33,709 nt of DNA from an uncultured Candidatus Saccharibacteria bacterium (GTDB taxonomy: Bacteria; Patescibacteriota; Saccharimonadia; Saccharimonadales; Saccharimonadaceae), in the NCBI GenBank assembly GCA_949480205.1, contig CASXXK010000010.1, positions 1 to 33,709 of the forward strand. The letters are read 5' to 3'. The notes under the pieces were generated by a model that was not told where the DNA came from, ran no database searches, and saw only the letters and a list, made by a program, of their open reading frames with translations. This document shows positions 12,777 to 33,301 of the stretch, one piece after another. The stretch's first letter is position 1. Each line of letters starts with the position of its first letter. A program made the translations under genes and the position numbers.

Positions 12777-14699
12777 CTAGGCGGGCGGGTGCTTATCTGT
12801 ACTAAGTAAATACAGTCGTCGTTTGGCTCGTGTCAGTGCGACATAGATCAGCCGTTGTTGGTCGGCAATTTCAGCTGCACGCGTATCACCAAATAATTCG
12901 AAGATTGTAGCATGCGGATGGGCGTTCTGTACGATTTCATGATCAAGTTCAAGCAGGATTACTACGTTAGACTCTAGACCTTTGGACTTGTGCATAGTCA
13001 TACAGCGTACCCGACGGTCAAATTCCGCTGAAGTCATGATCTTCTGCTCGACACTGAGTTGGCGCAACGCGGAAACAAAAATCTCGAGCGTAATACCATC
13101 AAACGAGGTAAAATTATGACGATGCAATAGCATAACATTCTGGCGCGCATGACGCCGTACGATTTTGATGACTGTTTTGAGCAGACGGGCGGCACTGATG
13201 GGGATTTTTTCTGGCGAAATGGTACCATGAGCAGCTTGACTCAGTGCTAACAGGATTTGTCCGTCGCCCAAGCAGTCTTCCTGCAAATCACTAACGTCGA
13301 AACGCGTTTGGTTGGGGTTGAGATGGTATATTTTGCCATTCTTGCGGCTAAATGCCTTGGCCGGAGTGGCCTGGGCGTCATAGTTATTTAGCATATAGCG
13401 GTTAGCCTGTTCAACAATACGGCGAGCACTCCGATAATTAGTGGCTAACGGAATATTAACAACATCTTCAGGAAAATACTCTGCAAAATTAATAAAGTAG
13501 TTTACATCTGAGCCTGCGAAACGGTTGATAGCTTGCCAATCATCACCAACGCAGAAGAGATGAGCGTGGGGCGCAAGCTGGCGCATGGCTTGAACCAGAG
13601 CAAAGAAAAGATAGGAAAAATCCTGATATTCATCGATGAGAATATATTTGAGCGGCGCTACCCGTTGGCACAGGACTTCATGACGGGTTGTAGACGAAAG
13701 TAGTTCGGTGGCAGTAGCCATCAAGAGATTAAAATCGGTTTTGGGTGAACGCAAAGTGGCAAGATATTTTTGATATACTTGGAGCGAAACCTGATGAAAC
13801 CGCACGTTCTTGACGAAATCCGCTTGACTTGAGTACTTGTTGCAATATTCGGCAACTTTTGCTTCTAAATTTTTGAGGCCGGTGCGGCCAGGATAGTATT
13901 GGCCAGCGCGCGTAATAAAATTGCTGACAATGCTAAGCATTTCTTGCCGTTCTTTAGGTGACAGTTTGAGGCGTAGTTCACTAAGCGTCTGTCGCAAAAG
14001 CTTTACAATTAGAATGTCGTGTTCTTCGCTGCTAATAATTACGGGACGTTCGCCAGCAAGTTTCATGAGGTCGAGAGCAAACTTATGAAAAGTTGAAGCA
14101 ATAGAAATTTTAACGCCTAGCCTGCCATCCTTTTCGAGACACGATGTCGCGCCAGCCCGACGTTGCGGGTGTCGCGCATCTTCATCCTCGGCCGTGGCCT
14201 CCGGAGATTCCCGAAAAAGAGATAGGCTAGACGCTGGACTTGCTAAGGCCACCTCTTGTTTTCTTATGAGAACATCCGCAGCTAGTGGACGAATCTTTGA
14301 TTCGGACACACGTGGCGAGGTTGAGGCGGCTCGACCCCGTGACGACAGGGGTCGAGAACGCCGTGTCTCAGAAGAAAATGAGAGGTGGCTTTTAGTGAGT
14401 TCTGCTAGGCCAATACCATCTATTTTTACTTCCGCGATGCGCTGGTTGACTTCAGCCGCGGCGGTACGATTGAACATGAAAATAGCGATTTCGTCTAAGT
14501 TTGCCAGACCATGCGCCACCAAATAGGCAACTTTAGCCACAATCACCCGTGTCTTACCCGAACCCGCACGCGCCGTAACTAAAGTATTCTTGTGATTGTC
14601 GATTGCGGCGCGAACCTGATCGTCATCTAGAGTATATGGCTCGCCAAATAGCGTTACGTGTTCACGAAACCAAATGCTTGCGTTAGTGATATTATCCAA
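12777..14699 (-). CDS. UvrD/Rep-type superfamily 1 DNA helicase with a GC-rich insert
   Basis: 640-residue SF1A helicase: Walker A ARAGSGKT at 43-50, Walker B ILIDEYQDFS, motif III CVGDDWQAINRF, motif IV region NYRSARRI, motif V TMHKSKGLESNVV and motif VI VALTRAKRR. All motifs are intact, so it should unwind DNA in repair or replication restart. Residues about 101-194 (positions 14118-14399) form a Ser/Arg/Ala/Glu-rich, low-complexity insert with no counterpart in UvrD proteins I know; its DNA is more GC-rich and full of palindromes. The start is TTG 14697-14699, with an in-frame stop two codons upstream and AAAGG 9 bases before it; no ATG fits better. Confidence 0.92.
   Translation of the reverse strand: MDNITNASIWFREHVTLFGEPYTLDDDQVRAAIDNHKNTLVTARAGSGKTRVIVAKVAYLVAHGLANLDEIAIFMFNRTAAAEVNQRIAEVKIDGIGLAELTKSHLSFSSETRRSRPLSSRGRAASTSPRVSESKIRPLAADVLIRKQEVALASPASSLSLFRESPEATAEDEDARHPQRRAGATSCLEKDGRLGVKISIASTFHKFALDLMKLAGERPVIISSEEHDILIVKLLRQTLSELRLKLSPKERQEMLSIVSNFITRAGQYYPGRTGLKNLEAKVAEYCNKYSSQADFVKNVRFHQVSLQVYQKYLATLRSPKTDFNLLMATATELLSSTTRHEVLCQRVAPLKYILIDEYQDFSYLFFALVQAMRQLAPHAHLFCVGDDWQAINRFAGSDVNYFINFAEYFPEDVVNIPLATNYRSARRIVEQANRYMLNNYDAQATPAKAFSRKNGKIYHLNPNQTRFDVSDLQEDCLGDGQILLALSQAAHGTISPEKIPISAARLLKTVIKIVRRHARQNVMLLHRHNFTSFDGITLEIFVSALRQLSVEQKIMTSAEFDRRVRCMTMHKSKGLESNVVILLELDHEIVQNAHPHATIFELFGDTRAAEIADQQRLIYVALTRAKRRLYLLSTDKHPPA
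14118..14399. repeat. Palindrome-rich, in-frame insert in the helicase gene
   Basis: Contains TCGACCCC/GGGGTCGA (about 14331-14355) within outer GGCG/CGCC and ACAC/GTGT stems, CGAATC-TTT-GATTCG (about 14290-14304), CCCG-acgttg-CGGG (about 14157-14168) and GACA-CGA-TGTC. The reading frame stays open across it. It resembles in principle the palindromic elements of Rickettsia that insert within genes; no homology is claimed. Confidence 0.5.
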
Positions 14700-28400: not shown

Positions 28401-28901
28401 CCAAGCACCACGACCCGGGATTACCTTGGCGCCATAATAGCGTTTGCCGTTCATTTCGTCGGCAGTAAAGAATACACCGGCCGAGCGAATCAATTGTGAA
28501 ACCACAACCCGTTCTGTGCCGTTAATGATGAAGGTGGCACGGTCGGTCATCCAAGGATAATCACCGAAGTAGATATCCTGCTCTTTAACTTCGCCGGTTA
28601 CTTTGTTGGTCAGCTCAACTTGTACGTGCAATGGCGCAGCGTAAGTTGAAAGGTTATATTTGGCAGTTTTTTCGTCTTCTGCCGGAGCCTTAAAGTAATA
28701 ATCCTTAAAGCGTAGGGACAATTTCTGTCCGGTATAGTCATCGATTGGGTTCAATTCATTGAACACCTCACGTAGACCTGATTTTACGAAATCCTCCCAG
28801 CTATCCTTCTGATGAGCGATCAGATCTGGAATGGGGAGAGCTTGGTCGCCTTCGGTGAAAAACACCCGGCTACCATCAGCAGCATTAGTTGCTTTACTCA
28901 C
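25491..28901 (-). CDS. rpoB: DNA-directed RNA polymerase subunit beta
   Basis: 1136 residues, compact, without the large lineage-specific inserts. The rifampicin region reads SSSQLSQLMDEVNGYSE followed by LAHKRRLSSMGPGG: Asp516, His526 and Ser531 (E. coli numbering) are kept, but Phe514 is Leu, Pro520 is Gly and Leu521 is Tyr, which may lower drug affinity. The C-terminus is long and acidic (Glu/Asp-rich). Start is GTG 28899-28901 after AGAGGAAAC. It has its own promoter and a leader of about 110 bases; rplJ/rplL are not upstream. Co-transcribed with rpoC. A 431-codon open frame antisense to it is a shadow. Confidence 0.98.
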   Translation of the reverse strand: MSKATNAADGSRVFFTEGDQALPIPDLIAHQKDSWEDFVKSGLREVFNELNPIDDYTGQKLSLRFKDYYFKAPAEDEKTAKYNLSTYAAPLHVQVELTNKVTGEVKEQDIYFGDYPWMTDRATFIINGTERVVVSQLIRSAGVFFTADEMNGKRYYGAKVIPGRGAWLEFETTASGCINVKIDRRRKIPVTTFLKALGIAKDEEIRDKFAEVDNGPISYINATLEKDTASGQSAALLEVYRRLRPGDLATVENAKSMIERAFFDYRRYDCSRVGRFKLNRRLGYDTPNDAAHRTLQMKDLIAIISEIIRLNNTQEAPDDIDSLSNRRVKLVGELVQRQFRLGMLRLQRNILDRMSMVSPEEVTPSQLLNSRPVVAAVKEFFSSSQLSQLMDEVNGYSELAHKRRLSSMGPGGLTRERAGFDVRDAHPTHYGRICTVETPEGGNVGLVLNLATYARINEYGFIEAPYRVVKNGKVTDEVVYVDADTENDMIIADASVKLNDKGEFAEDWVSARVKGRPTQVASNLVTHIDAAHKEILGTSASLIPFVEKNRVDRSLMACAMQKQAVPLLKNDAPIVGTGIEHVVAMNTSQVVVAEAAGEVTKADGVSVVVKYKDGEKEYKVEHFEKTNDDRCYNQRVKVVRGQKVKKGDILIEGASVTDGELALGKDLLVAFMPWRGYNMDDAIVISSRLVEDDKLTSINIKDFDVEVRETKLGPEQVTRDIPNVPEKSLRHLGEDGIVVVGSEVMPGDILVGKITPKGEQELSSEERLLRAIFGEKAKDVRDTSVRMNGSSMGKVVGVRVYAREQGHELKAGVLMQIKIYVAEMRKISVGDKIAGRHGNKGVVSRILPVEDMPFMEDGTPIDVLLSPMGVPSRMNLGQLFEIHLGMAARALGYKVATPPFNGVSDETISEQLEKAGFSRDGRVQLYDGLTGEPFNERTSVGVMHMLKLHHMVEDKIHARSTGPYTTVTQQPLGGKAQNGGQRFGEMEVWALEAYGAATTLQEMLTIKSDDVYGRAKAYESIIKREPIEGPKLPEGFNVLVKEFQGLGLKVDLLDHGESTDAGEVIEKTSREIEKQHDDRLIYAQHGNQNFEDTLVDLDDEEAKEMLDDEGIEITEAEDEDISSAEDDADLDLGEEL

Positions 28902-29019
28902 AGTTTCCTCTCTTTTAGTGGTTAATAATCTTTAGCGCCGAAGATTACTGTGATATTTTGTGCACGTGGCCCGCAATTCCAGCGCATACCAAAAAATCAC
29001 TCACTACTTCTTACGGTCT

Positions 29020-29059: not shown

Positions 29060-29148
29060 AAAAAATCGCCTTCCCATGGGCGACTTTTTGAACATATAAG
29101 CTCTCAACTTATCGTTGGCTCGCAGTTAGCCATATGTTCTTTCGAACT
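29060..29148 (-). ncRNA. Candidate structured small RNA upstream of rpoB
   Basis: A complete small transcription unit of about 89 bases. GAACATAT pairs with ATATGTTC (29090-29139), enclosing GGCT/AGCC and ATAAG/CTTAT hairpins. The first GAAC can instead pair with an upstream GTTC across a GAAA tetraloop (29136-29147), so two folds compete. The 3' end is an intrinsic terminator: TCGCC/GGCGA then six T (29060-29083). A promoter lies directly upstream. rpoB has its own promoter further down, so this may be an independent RNA rather than an rpoB leader, but a riboswitch-like attenuator is possible. It matches none of SRP, 6S, tmRNA or RNase P that I know. Confidence 0.6.
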
Positions 29149-29154
29149 GTTTTT

Positions 29155-29183
29155 AGTATAACTCATGCTCAGAAAAATAACAA
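29155..29183 (-). promoter_or_regulatory. Promoter of the candidate small RNA
   Basis: TTGTTA (29178-29183) and TATACT (29155-29160) on the minus strand, spacer 17 bases. Start expected near 29148. Confidence 0.65.
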
Positions 29184-29342
29184 GAGCTTTTTACGAGATT
29201 TTTTCATTTTAAGTGCATAAGATTGTAGGCAAGATGGTGCTCTGATTTTTAGAATATCGGCAATTTCGTGATATTTCGATATATAGTAAAGGCTCTTCAT
29301 CTAGTAGCTTTTTGCGCCTTTTTCTCAAACCAACACAAAATG
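29184..29342. other. AT-rich gene-free stretch
   Basis: No open frame with a start signal, no RNA signature and no repeat of note on either strand. Only short runs of T and A. Confidence 0.6.
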
Positions 29343-29376
29343 CGGTAGCTGGTAGTCTTAAGGTTACCAGCTACCG
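29343..29376. terminator. Strong hairpin, direction uncertain
   Basis: CGGTAGCTGGTA pairs perfectly with TACCAGCTACCG across a ten-base loop. On the plus strand AGGACTTTT follows, on the minus strand CATTTTG. Possibly a terminator insulating the lipoprotein gene or ending an unseen transcript. Confidence 0.5.
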
Positions 29377-29403
29377 AGGACTTTTCCGTCGCTTAACATG
29401 CTA

Positions 29404-29512: not shown

Positions 29513-31111
29513 ATGAAGAAGTTCCATCTATTAGTAGCCTGTATCATGTTGACGCTGTTCACTGGATGCGCCGCCAGTAATGAAGCGGTCGCAAAACCCG
29601 ACAACAGCATACCGCCTGCATCTGAGGAGCAAAGCATCGCCAATGTTCCAAACGACGAACAGGAAATCCAGCCTGCGTATGAGTATACAGTTGCAGAGGT
29701 TTGTGCCGGTCTTCGGGAAGACAAAGGAGATTGGAAAGAGCGCTACGAAAGGCCGTACTTTTCCTGGGTCACTGTCGATGGTGAGGATTATTACTATCGG
29801 CATACTTACCCCAGCAATGAGTGGAGCGTTAGCGAAGTAGTAGATTATTATCGTGAACACTACTATTATTGGGGCGATGACCCGACGGCGCCTTACGGAG
29901 AATGTACCAAGTTTTATCTTTGGACTCCGGATTATGAGCATCGGTTCGTTGCAAATACCGAGGAACATTGGCTCTATATCGATGGCATCAAATCTGCTCC
30001 ATTAGACTCTACTTCCTACTCTATGGATCCAAAAGATCTGGTTGAGGCTTTTCAGAGCAGAGAGTGGGACGGTATAACCCGTAGGTATTCAGATGATTTC
30101 TCAACCTATGCAACCGTCGTGCCGCAGTATGGCGTCTTGGAGTATAGGTATTATATTGAATATCTTTCTACAGAAAGAGACCCTGATAGTCTGGCTTACA
30201 CTGGCTATCTCGATTCAATACCCTGGTGGGAAGATGAGACAAATGAATACGATGCTATTGCGATGTATGGCTCTGCTTACACTAATGACGGCGGGTTAAA
30301 CACTCCCAGTACTTACGGCTACGGCAGCTATGACGACAGTGGCAGTAGCGGAAGTCGTGGTTCGACCGCTTGGGCTATTGCCTATGTTGACGTTCCGTGG
30401 GACAAGCAGGATAAGCTATGGGCGGTTCGGAGCGCTGGCGATGTTTATCCGGACACCTATTTCGGCGAAAGTGCTTCGTATGCTCTCTATGCAGGGCGTA
30501 CGTCGGACGGACTTTATGCTATTACAGATAGCGGCGTAGAACTCTGGCGGGCTGGACGCCTGCGCCAGACCTGGAGCCTAAAAATGACACCCGATAGCTA
30601 TCTCTCTACAAACCAGTATTATTCGGATAGTATCGTTGTTTATGCAGACGGCAGGCTATACGAACTGTTTGATGATGGTGAAGTCGGCATCATTGTCGAC
30701 AATATCGTCAGCGTCAACCTTGGGTATGTTGATACATTCTGTGGCTTTACTTTATCAAAGGATGGTACGCTTCGGATATGCGGCTTACGTGGTAGCAGCA
30801 ATATGATCTCTGCAGAAATTGCTACAAACGTTGTAGCAGCCGATTTGTCAGATGAGCTTTTGGTGCTTTATACTGACGACTCCGGTAAAACCTATGCAAT
30901 TTATGATTTTCTTGGTTCGGATGCTGGTATGGTAGCCTTGTGTCAAAGCGACAATTATAAAGTTGCTTGCCTGGGTGAAGGCTCCATTGAGCATTTTAAG
31001 GAGCTCTGCGCGACCTACCATCTCGAGCATGATGGCAACCGCTTACAGGAACAGTTTATCGAGGAGGTGGCTGCCAAGTATCTTGCAACTATATCAGGAG
31101 ATGAAGATTAG
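29513..31111 (+). CDS. Secreted lipoprotein of unknown function
   Basis: 532 residues. A lipoprotein signal peptide (KKFHLLVACIMLTLF) ends in the lipobox FTGC with Cys19 as the lipidation site. The mature protein is rich in Tyr, Ser and Asp, with a low-complexity SYDDSGSSGSRGS linker near residue 280. The C-terminal half has repeated strand-like units such as LYELFDDGEVGIIVDNI and GFTLSKDGTLRICGL that hint at a beta-propeller of RCC1 type; this is a guess. It is expressed alone from a consensus promoter, with AGGAGAGG before ATG and its own terminator. It is plus-strand, against the prevailing direction, and probably surface-exposed. Confidence 0.85.
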   Translation: MKKFHLLVACIMLTLFTGCAASNEAVAKPDNSIPPASEEQSIANVPNDEQEIQPAYEYTVAEVCAGLREDKGDWKERYERPYFSWVTVDGEDYYYRHTYPSNEWSVSEVVDYYREHYYYWGDDPTAPYGECTKFYLWTPDYEHRFVANTEEHWLYIDGIKSAPLDSTSYSMDPKDLVEAFQSREWDGITRRYSDDFSTYATVVPQYGVLEYRYYIEYLSTERDPDSLAYTGYLDSIPWWEDETNEYDAIAMYGSAYTNDGGLNTPSTYGYGSYDDSGSSGSRGSTAWAIAYVDVPWDKQDKLWAVRSAGDVYPDTYFGESASYALYAGRTSDGLYAITDSGVELWRAGRLRQTWSLKMTPDSYLSTNQYYSDSIVVYADGRLYELFDDGEVGIIVDNIVSVNLGYVDTFCGFTLSKDGTLRICGLRGSSNMISAEIATNVVAADLSDELLVLYTDDSGKTYAIYDFLGSDAGMVALCQSDNYKVACLGEGSIEHFKELCATYHLEHDGNRLQEQFIEEVAAKYLATISGDED

Positions 31112-31292: not shown

Positions 31293-32090
31293 TCATACCT
31301 CGGATGGTCTCAGTTGTTGTTGCAGAATGCTGATAACGGTTTTCCCGCCGACGTTCTTGCAGTTACAAATCACATGTTCGTCGGAGCTTTCCTCGCCACG
31401 TTTCATTACGCCCAAAAAGAGCCGAGTGTCCACTTTTGACTTCACAGTGGCCGTGATCCGTTGAATTACGCCAATATCGGCTGACAACGGATTCATTGGA
31501 CGAACATCAAACTCGATGTGATCCGAATAGACAGCAGCCCTAAAAATACAGTGTGCCTTACTTTTGCCGTTAAAAATCCGCCGCAAAGTCGCCCGACTGA
31601 AGTCATGATAACATTCGGTTAGTCCCAATCTGTAGGACCCCAGCCATGTTTCCGCTTCTGCCTCATTCAAACTGCCGACCACAATGTAGTACGGGCTCCA
31701 TAGTGCCGTGTTATCATCGGGCACACGCAGTTCTATGAGCGGCTCAGTACCAGCGGGGACTACATAGTTTCGACGAATCTTAACCGCTGCAGCTGCCTGA
31801 CGATTCCTGCGCGCCATTCCTGTAAGCACCTCTGTGCTCTGTACAACGTCGCGTACAGAGCAGAACAGCCTGTTCTCATAAGTAGTATATGGTCCGAGTT
31901 TTGAGAGGATCTGGTCGTGATCCAGACTCGGATCATCTTTGATTTCTCGCCAAGTGATAGGACGACCGCGTTCAATGGATTTTTTCTGCAGGCGGCCAAG
32001 CCATTCCTCTTTGGTTAAATCCGAACGGTCCTTGGTAATACCGGGTCGCAAGACGATAGCTTTACTATCAGCGAAATAAGCCAGTGACAT
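31293..32090 (-). CDS. Protein with an HNH-associated (homing-repeat-like) segment
   Basis: 265 residues from ATG 32088-32090, 8 bases after AGGAAGG; a GTG nine bases upstream abuts the ribosome-binding site and is less likely. Residues about 40-70 (GRPITWREIKDDPSLDHDQI, then LSKLGPYTTYENRL) resemble the short DNA-binding repeat associated with HNH and homing endonucleases (PF18780). No HNH nuclease motif is present. The remaining 180 residues form an unrecognised domain with conserved-looking strands and a few Cys. A DNA-binding or regulatory role is inference. It is divergent from the membrane protein at 32290. Confidence 0.65.
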   Translation of the reverse strand: MSLAYFADSKAIVLRPGITKDRSDLTKEEWLGRLQKKSIERGRPITWREIKDDPSLDHDQILSKLGPYTTYENRLFCSVRDVVQSTEVLTGMARRNRQAAAAVKIRRNYVVPAGTEPLIELRVPDDNTALWSPYYIVVGSLNEAEAETWLGSYRLGLTECYHDFSRATLRRIFNGKSKAHCIFRAAVYSDHIEFDVRPMNPLSADIGVIQRITATVKSKVDTRLFLGVMKRGEESSDEHVICNCKNVGGKTVISILQQQLRPSEV

Positions 32091-32135
32091 ACAATGCACC
32101 TTCCTTTTTAATATTCTTGCAGAGCAACGGTTGCT

Positions 32136-32289: not shown

Positions 32290-32808
32290 ATGTTAAAAAG
32301 ACAAATTGATCATCTTAATGCGGCGAGCAACTGGTTATTGATTATCGTAGGTAGCATAACTTACGCAATGGTCAACCGACTTATCACCATCTGGAGACTC
32401 GGTGAGCCGGGCGATGCCTATGCATTAACAATCGGATTATGCATCCTTACCCTGCTGCCGCTCTGTCTCTGTGTCATGGTTGGTTTTCCCTTAAAGTGGC
32501 TGCTGGCCAAAGTCTGCCCGGGATACAAGTCGTGCTACATTAAGGATTCCAGCACCACGGACGATGCCATAATGGACGGCATAAAAAGCATCAGTGCAGT
32601 AGTGCTCTTCGGCATAATGCTATGTTATCGCCAGAGCGCAGGACAGTTCGAGTTCATCTGCAACGTGGTCATTTGGGTAGAATTGTTCTACGTGGTAATT
32701 GTATTTTTGACCGCCGTAAGCGATGTTTGTGCCACAATTCACGAAGCTATTAAGCTCTATGTGGCGCAACTCGAGCCGCGGCTTGAGTTGCTGGAAAACA
32801 AGAATTAA
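32290..32808 (+). CDS. Small polytopic membrane protein of unknown function
   Basis: 172 residues with four hydrophobic segments at about 13-30, 44-70, 100-113 and 122-143, and a cytoplasmic amphipathic C-terminus rich in Leu and Glu. Two Cys (CPGYKSC) lie in the loop between segments 2 and 3. I recognise no family. AGGAGGGG lies six bases before ATG. The consensus promoter is shared in style with the lipoprotein gene. Confidence 0.8.
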   Translation: MLKRQIDHLNAASNWLLIIVGSITYAMVNRLITIWRLGEPGDAYALTIGLCILTLLPLCLCVMVGFPLKWLLAKVCPGYKSCYIKDSSTTDDAIMDGIKSISAVVLFGIMLCYRQSAGQFEFICNVVIWVELFYVVIVFLTAVSDVCATIHEAIKLYVAQLEPRLELLENKN

Positions 32809-32866: not shown

Positions 32867-33301
32867 TTAGATATCTAGGTCGTCTAAATCAGCTAGTTCG
32901 GCACGGGTCTTCTCAGCTAATTCATTCTCGGCTGCACCGCCATCCATAGGGGCTTCGCCCTCTAATTCTTGATCGGCCAACTCGCCCACAGCTTCTGCTT
33001 CGGCACGAGTCTCAGCCGCTGGTTTGGCCACGCGTGGCTCGCCGCCTTCGACATCATCAGTATTAACCACCTTGAGGTTGTAGCGAGCGCCATTCTTGGT
33101 GCCAAGTACGCGCAGCAAAGTCCGAATACTCTGTGCAGTAGCGCCCCGTTTACCGATGACACGACCAACATCTTCTGGATCTACGCTCAAGCTCAATAAA
33201 ACACCGCGTTCGTCGATTTCGCGTTCGACAACAACTTTATCTGGGTTGTTAACTAGGGTTTTTACGATATATTCTACAAATTGTTGGTCAATGGTTGCCA
33301 T
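32867..33301 (-). CDS. khpA: KH-domain RNA-binding protein (KhpA/YlqC family) with acidic tail
   Basis: 144 residues. Residues 1-80 are a single KH domain with the GxxG loop in VIGKRGATAQSIRTLL, as in KhpA, which binds RNA with KhpB and affects cell division and elongation in Firmicutes. The last about 60 residues are an Ala/Glu/Asp-rich tail absent from standard KhpA (which has about 75-80 residues). It sits downstream of rpsP, the usual rpsP-ylqC order. It has its own TATAAT (33335-33340) and GGAGAG before ATG, and a terminator separates it from rpsP. Confidence 0.9.
   Translation of the reverse strand: MATIDQQFVEYIVKTLVNNPDKVVVEREIDERGVLLSLSVDPEDVGRVIGKRGATAQSIRTLLRVLGTKNGARYNLKVVNTDDVEGGEPRVAKPAAETRAEAEAVGELADQELEGEAPMDGGAAENELAEKTRAELADLDDLDI

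Follow-up and report, generated by a model that had tools for sequence, protein, structure and literature searches.

CsrB/RsmZ-type small RNAs (sRNAs), which sequester a protein, carry repeated short purine motifs (ANGGA) in or beside hairpins together with a terminator of their own, and 6S RNA is about 180 bases long. In other bacteria KhpA interacts with RNAs including sRNAs, as far as the accessible parts of two reports go (PMC12456014, PMC10117718). We analysed an RNA gene on the minus strand of a 33,709-nucleotide stretch of DNA (the window) from an uncultured Candidatus Saccharibacteria bacterium. Like the CsrB/RsmZ-type RNAs it shows short purine motifs in or beside hairpins and its own terminator, but its motif is UGMGAG rather than ANGGA, it has one to three copies of it, and CsrA was encoded in none of 20 genomes (found in 3 of 14 controls). 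Membership of the CsrB/RsmZ sponges was rejected on this last ground, and that of the Hfq-dependent sRNAs because Hfq was also encoded in 0 of 20 genomes (controls, 5 of 14). The likeness to KhpA/KhpB-bound sRNAs is one of setting, namely KhpA as a candidate partner and the want of Hfq; KhpA is only a putative partner here, and the accessible parts of the two reports give no KhpA sequence motif.

With 6S RNA it shares a single-copy, housekeeping-like character and a long hairpin with an asymmetric bulge, but at about 89 bases it is much shorter and has no similarity in Rfam searches; the 6S model (RF00013) did not match it, and exceeded its cut-off in 0 of 40 genomes; of 14 controls 5 gave a match, 4 of them above the cut-off. 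One order member has a sub-threshold 6S-like match (L255, G590:C51:16563-16716; 32.4 bits, cut-off 46.4, E 2.7e-5), which is either a diverged 6S RNA or a contaminating contig. In the window and in 10 relative loci no Rfam 15 family reached its gathering cut-off, as the first-pass annotation had anticipated in recognizing no known family, and ARAGORN returned no tRNA or tmRNA match. The best sub-threshold match was RNAI (RF00106), which likewise has hairpins followed by a GC-rich terminator, but the score lies below the cut-off (22.1 bits versus 47) and the shared letters fall largely in the terminator. We found no report of Saccharibacteria small RNAs in the open-access literature, with the subscription literature mostly outside this search and an earlier mention there possible; in the accessible main text of a TM7x transcriptome paper (PMC10768705) the terms 'noncoding' and 'small RNA' are absent. 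With no Rfam family and no open-access report, we assign the RNA to a new family among the independent structured small RNAs, an established kind.

Promoter, terminator and conservation of a compact small RNA gene

The features of the locus are as follows.

29060..29148, minus strand: small RNA gene, about 89 bases, from the estimated start to the end of the T run (family and order searches)
29155..29183, minus strand: small RNA promoter, TTGTTA (29183-29178), 17 bases, TATACT (29160-29155) (promoter scan and relatives)
29060..29089, minus strand, 3' end approximate: intrinsic terminator of the small RNA (covarying stem, 0/500 shuffles)
29136..29147, minus strand: H1, the GTTC-GAAA-GAAC hairpin (column shuffles and swap test)
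29128..29139, minus strand: P1 5' arm, GAACAUAUGGCU, common to H1 and H2 (covariation, swap, folding)
29090..29102, minus strand: P1 3' arm, AGCUUAUAUGUUC, including the conserved UUAUNUG (covariation, swap, folding)
29105..29117, minus strand: H3, the CAAC...GUUG hairpin, covarying across the order (partner swaps and covariation)
29117..29131, minus strand: H2, GGCU...AGCC, predicted alternative to P1
29119..29126, minus strand: motif ACUGCGAG, in the bulge between P1 and H3 of the predicted fold, invariant in 30/30
29101..29108, minus strand: motif GUUGAGAG, closing H3 and entering P1, invariant in 30/30
28902..29012, minus strand: conserved rpoB leader RNA, separate from the small RNA (relatives' loci and alignment)
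32867..33301, minus strand: khpA, KH-domain protein (Pfam PF13083, E 1.8e-22), about 3.7 kb upstream of the small RNA

On the minus strand a sigma-70-like promoter precedes the unit and its terminator; next come a second promoter, which is weak (29048-29020), and then rpoB, which starts at 28901. The promoter match taken alone is within chance for the region (5 promoter-like sites, 3.1 expected), and the fold without the terminator is equalled by 10 of 200 shuffles (z -1.74); with the terminator included none of 200 is equally good (z -3.81). It is because of its conservation, in the promoter of the relatives and in invariant blocks, rather than through the promoter match or the fold alone, that the unit stands above chance. 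A promoter matching at 9 or more of 12 positions lies at the corresponding place in 98 of 108 non-redundant small RNA sequences (counted after leaving out three parsed entries, L132, L197 and L230), and mean promoter scores by group are 8.8-9.7, versus 5.6-6.1 after shuffling. The first-pass annotation, which had proposed an unannotated small RNA unit with this promoter, hairpins and an intrinsic terminator, is thereby borne out. It had further proposed a separate rpoB promoter, of which TTGCAT-17-TAAAAT can be read at the second site but is weak by consensus and absent from the promoter scan.

Of the features expected of an independent trans-acting sRNA, a predicted promoter and terminator of its own and a conserved structure are present. 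A small peptide was considered, since the 3' part with its GAG, spacer and AUG resembles a ribosome binding site, and was rejected: the ATG shifts in position and is missing near motif 3 in 13 of 108 sequences, and the frames, of 1 to 252 codons, are unconserved. We regard it as nearly certain that the compact small RNA gene is real; by comparison of sequences, it is a mostly single-copy, structured RNA that has a promoter and terminator to itself and is neither coding nor a cis leader.

Elsewhere in the window (12777-14699, minus strand) a helicase-like frame has an apparent insertion, a long Ser/Arg-rich stretch at about residues 110-200.

Distribution across the order

A DNA search of the window's own genome and 100 genomes of the genus yielded 30 loci that show the full pattern, counting the one in the window; two 15-base matches in its own genome (L002, L003) were dropped as chance. 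The covariance model R1, built from the alignment of these 30 sequences and used at E <=0.1, matched 92 of 121 genomes in the family and 130 of 195 in the class. These counts are slightly high, because seven weak matches that were inspected (L086 and L092 within the order, L106-L110 from the other orders of the class) lack the core and were dropped as false. RNAalifold gave no base pairs on an order-wide MAFFT alignment, and the model R2 is therefore sequence-only; it matched 94 of 148 order genomes at E <=0.001. In a set of 286 phylum genomes it gave no convincing match beyond the order; the matches there had E 2.6e-4 or worse and were taken as chance. A pattern scan of named genomes recovered at least 116 stretches, and the matches listed carry titles of Saccharibacteria/Saccharimonadia or TM7 oral taxon 348, apart from a few labelled 'bacterium' or Patescibacteria metagenome-assembled genomes. 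Most genomes have a single match.

In 22 genomes without a convincing model match we inspected the region behind khpA. The gene was present in 21, and it was followed by a diverged or reduced copy in seven (G104, G106, G121, G122, G125, G150, G227) and a truncated remnant in one (G113), with no small RNA visible behind it in the other 13 of these 21 genomes chosen for lacking a convincing match. H3 is missing from three of the reduced copies (G104, G150, G227), although letters resembling GCGAG or GAGAG and a UUUAU segment remain in them. The remnant in G113 (L279) stops after GCGAGCAAACC, with unrelated sequence beyond, apparently a natural loss. The small RNA was not seen in four genomes read from other orders of the class. 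As judged from these matches it occurs widely, though not universally, in the order and is inherited across it, the named matches being Saccharibacteria.

Gene neighbourhood

Of 170 parsed loci, some of which are not independent of one another, 143 have the gene for the KH-domain RNA-binding protein KhpA upstream in the same orientation, and in 97 of the 170 its last codons come within 90 bases of the small RNA core. In a typical relative the Asp-Ile-stop codons of khpA (GATATATAA) form part of the TATAAT box; in L047 and L111, for example, the end of khpA (Asp-Leu-Asp-Ile-stop) also serves the small RNA promoter as its -10 box. The distance is 0.6-1.3 kb in several other relatives (L007, L008, L011, L085, L089, L105), where the element is intact. 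Because the distance varies while the element stays whole, we consider the small RNA an independent gene that usually stands behind khpA. In the window three frames separate the two (29513-31111 plus, 31293-32099 minus and 32290-32808 plus); they have no Pfam matches, one is lipoprotein-like, and they look inserted. The gap separating the small RNA from the divergent lipoprotein-like gene contains an inverted repeat, GGTAGCTGGTA/TACCAGCTACC, at 29339-29380.

The downstream gene is trmD in 79 and rpoB in 47 of the 170 parsed loci. A cis leader or attenuator of rpoB or trmD was rejected on the ground that this gene is not fixed. The first-pass annotation had placed the unit before rpoBC, which holds for the window; however, with rpoB downstream in only 47 loci and khpA the usual neighbour, the link is incidental and a feature of this part of the family.

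The second promoter is followed by a conserved rpoB leader that the first-pass annotation did not include. It has the sequence AGAAGUAGUG...CAGUAAUCUUCGGCGCU...AACACUAA, is found in 33 non-redundant loci and has a long covarying helix with double changes at 7 of 13 predicted pairs in 20 aligned sequences; the window and 10 relative loci gave no Rfam match to it. By these signs it looks like a cis-regulator of rpoBC.

Helices and competing folds

The best-supported helix is H3, in which 92.3% of cells pair and 20 double changes are seen among 13 diverse sequences; its covariation of 0.650 compares with 0.183 (sd 0.047) after shuffling, and none of 500 shuffles reaches it. When partners were swapped between sequences, which leaves their relatedness in place, the mean H3 stem was 6.44 versus 3.81 in group O (18 sequences) and 5.85 versus 4.45 in group F (52 sequences), no swap round reaching the observed value in either group. 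In group G (41 sequences) there was no clear difference (6.71 versus 6.52), because the letters hardly vary there. The terminator stem also covaries strongly, as its shuffles show, and relatives occur across the order; the absence of covariation in relatives, named in advance as grounds for abandoning the unit, is thus not what the comparison gave.

It had also been proposed that a GAAC segment pairs either upstream, in H1, or downstream, where GAACATAT (29139-29132) is complementary to ATATGTTC (29097-29090) on the minus strand. H1 is paired in 86.7% of cells; its covariation score is reached by 5 and its pair count by 145 of 500 column shuffles, and by the swap test it is equalled in 0 of 100 swaps. 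P1, which comprises the downstream pairing together with an inner extension, is nearly always possible but lacks column covariation, its values being reached by 57 to 190 of 500 shuffles for the downstream pairing and by 67 to 500 of 500 in a second P1 test. Over the 41 group-G sequences, however, the arms of the same sequence pair better than swapped ones (-4.69 versus -3.57, sd 0.25; 0/200), mainly because in a sister group all three arms have changed from GUUC/GAAC/GUUC to AUGC/GCAU/AUGC with both pairings kept. For H2 column shuffles lend no support to covariation (473/500).

For the RNA of the window ViennaRNA gives nearly equal energies, -26.0 kcal/mol for P1+H3 versus -25.7 for H1+H2, and neither fold uses up the terminator; the program ranks P1 ahead of H2 in 34 of 41 group-G sequences, in 49 of 51 from group F and in 15 of 16 from group O. 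The structure derived by RNAalifold from the genus alignment agrees only partly with the P1+H3 fold argued for here. A kink-turn in the internal loop between P1 and H3 was judged by eye and rejected, since the bulge sizes do not fit. Of the two proposed pairings, then, both are backed by the swap tests and by the near-equal computed energies, the upstream hairpin is weakly backed by column shuffles, and the downstream helix is not. Two folds are plausible from this modelling, with P1+H3 the more widely kept, and we infer that the RNA may switch between them in vivo.

Conserved motifs

The most conserved parts of the small RNA are ACUGCGAG and GUUGAGAGC-UUAUNUG. At the DNA level ACTGCGAG and GTTGAGAG are invariant in all 30 aligned sequences (the window and 29 relatives), followed by a nearly invariant CTTAT.TG, and of the 108 non-redundant sequences 104 have UUAUNUG, UUAUCUAUG or UUAUAUAUG. 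The strict UGMGAG is present in two copies in 33 of the 41 group-G RNAs, in three copies in 31 of the 51 from group F and in a single copy in 12 of the 16 from group O; like the other motif counts, these are drawn from related sequences. Of the 51 group-F RNAs, 32 have an additional copy in their 5' part (shuffles: mean 1.7, maximum 6), and 9 of the 41 group-G RNAs have related copies beyond motif 3, where the terminator lies (shuffles: mean 0.8, maximum 6). Group G has lost the GCUC partner of GCGAG and retained GCGAG itself, which for this reason is probably recognised in its own right, beyond any role in a stem.

No recurrent long complement of the conserved blocks was found in 60 genomes. 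There CTAACTGCGAG had 64 matches, mostly the gene itself by position (reversed control, 23), and GTTGAGAGCTTA had 43 versus 6 for the reversed control. The idea of antisense targets for these long blocks, of 11 and 12 bases, was dropped for want of an excess of further sites.

Function: a proposed protein-binding RNA and its rivals

The explanation that we tentatively place first, at somewhat less than an even chance, is a standalone trans-acting RNA that binds protein rather than mRNA, with KhpA as the likeliest partner. Its stable fold would be P1+H3, in which the ACUGCGAG bulge faces GUUGAGAG; this composite site, with the extra UGMGAG copies of many lineages, would be read by the partner, and the RNA would tune the activity of KhpA or its supply of RNA. 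The competing H1+H2 fold would take the composite site apart, as an off state or a co-transcriptional intermediate. We counted as support the distribution, the RNA's own promoter, the covariation of H3, the invariant motifs, the additional UGMGAG copies and the lack of a recurrent antisense partner, and also that khpA remains the RNA's usual neighbour whether trmD or rpoB follows downstream. KhpA is suggested as partner because of this synteny, the absence of both Hfq and CsrA in the 20 genomes, and the reports of KhpA-sRNA interaction elsewhere, so far as their accessible parts go. Against this explanation stand the khpA-bearing genomes without such an RNA, the reduced copies without H3 and the mostly single UGMGAG of group O; the synteny may be inertia.

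A mostly single-copy RNA with its own promoter and terminator and partly unpaired invariant segments could also be a trans-acting sRNA that pairs with mRNAs through the exposed UGCGAG and GAGAGC-UUAUNUG as short seeds, with KhpA or nothing as chaperone. The lack of excess sites for the two long blocks speaks against this, and we think it rather doubtful. That the element belongs to the 3' UTR of the khpA mRNA and controls khpA in cis, its promoter having been gained secondarily, would account for the position and closeness of khpA in most loci, but it sits poorly with a promoter in 98 of 108 sequences and with an intact element 3.7 kb from khpA in the window and 0.6-1.3 kb in several relatives; we consider it improbable.

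Two nearly isoenergetic folds and an internal loop with invariant letters would also suit a riboswitch-like RNA answering a metabolite or ion, yet no cis output is visible, since neither fold uses the terminator and no downstream gene is fixed, and this reading is very unlikely. No more credit can be given to a functional analogue of 6S RNA, a rod whose asymmetric bulge binds RNA polymerase: the predicted rod with a bulge and the failure of 6S to exceed the cut-off in any of 40 genomes would fit, whereas the RNA is only about half as long as 6S, lacks a large bubble at its centre, has invariant purine motifs that do not resemble a promoter and shows no Rfam similarity. Returning to the protein-binding RNA, the more specific proposal that an order-wide RNA tunes KhpA as CsrB tunes CsrA, toggling between folds that display or hide the ACUGCGAG/GUUGAGAG site in organisms where Hfq and CsrA were not found, is in our estimate unlikely.

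Post-transcriptional regulation in the Saccharibacteria, which are ultrasmall parasites, appears nearly unexplored in the open-access literature. An RNA gene that is retained in most of an order whose genomes are strongly reduced, and with changing genes around it, likely matters to the cell, and its tie to khpA offers a concrete entry into what KhpA binds.
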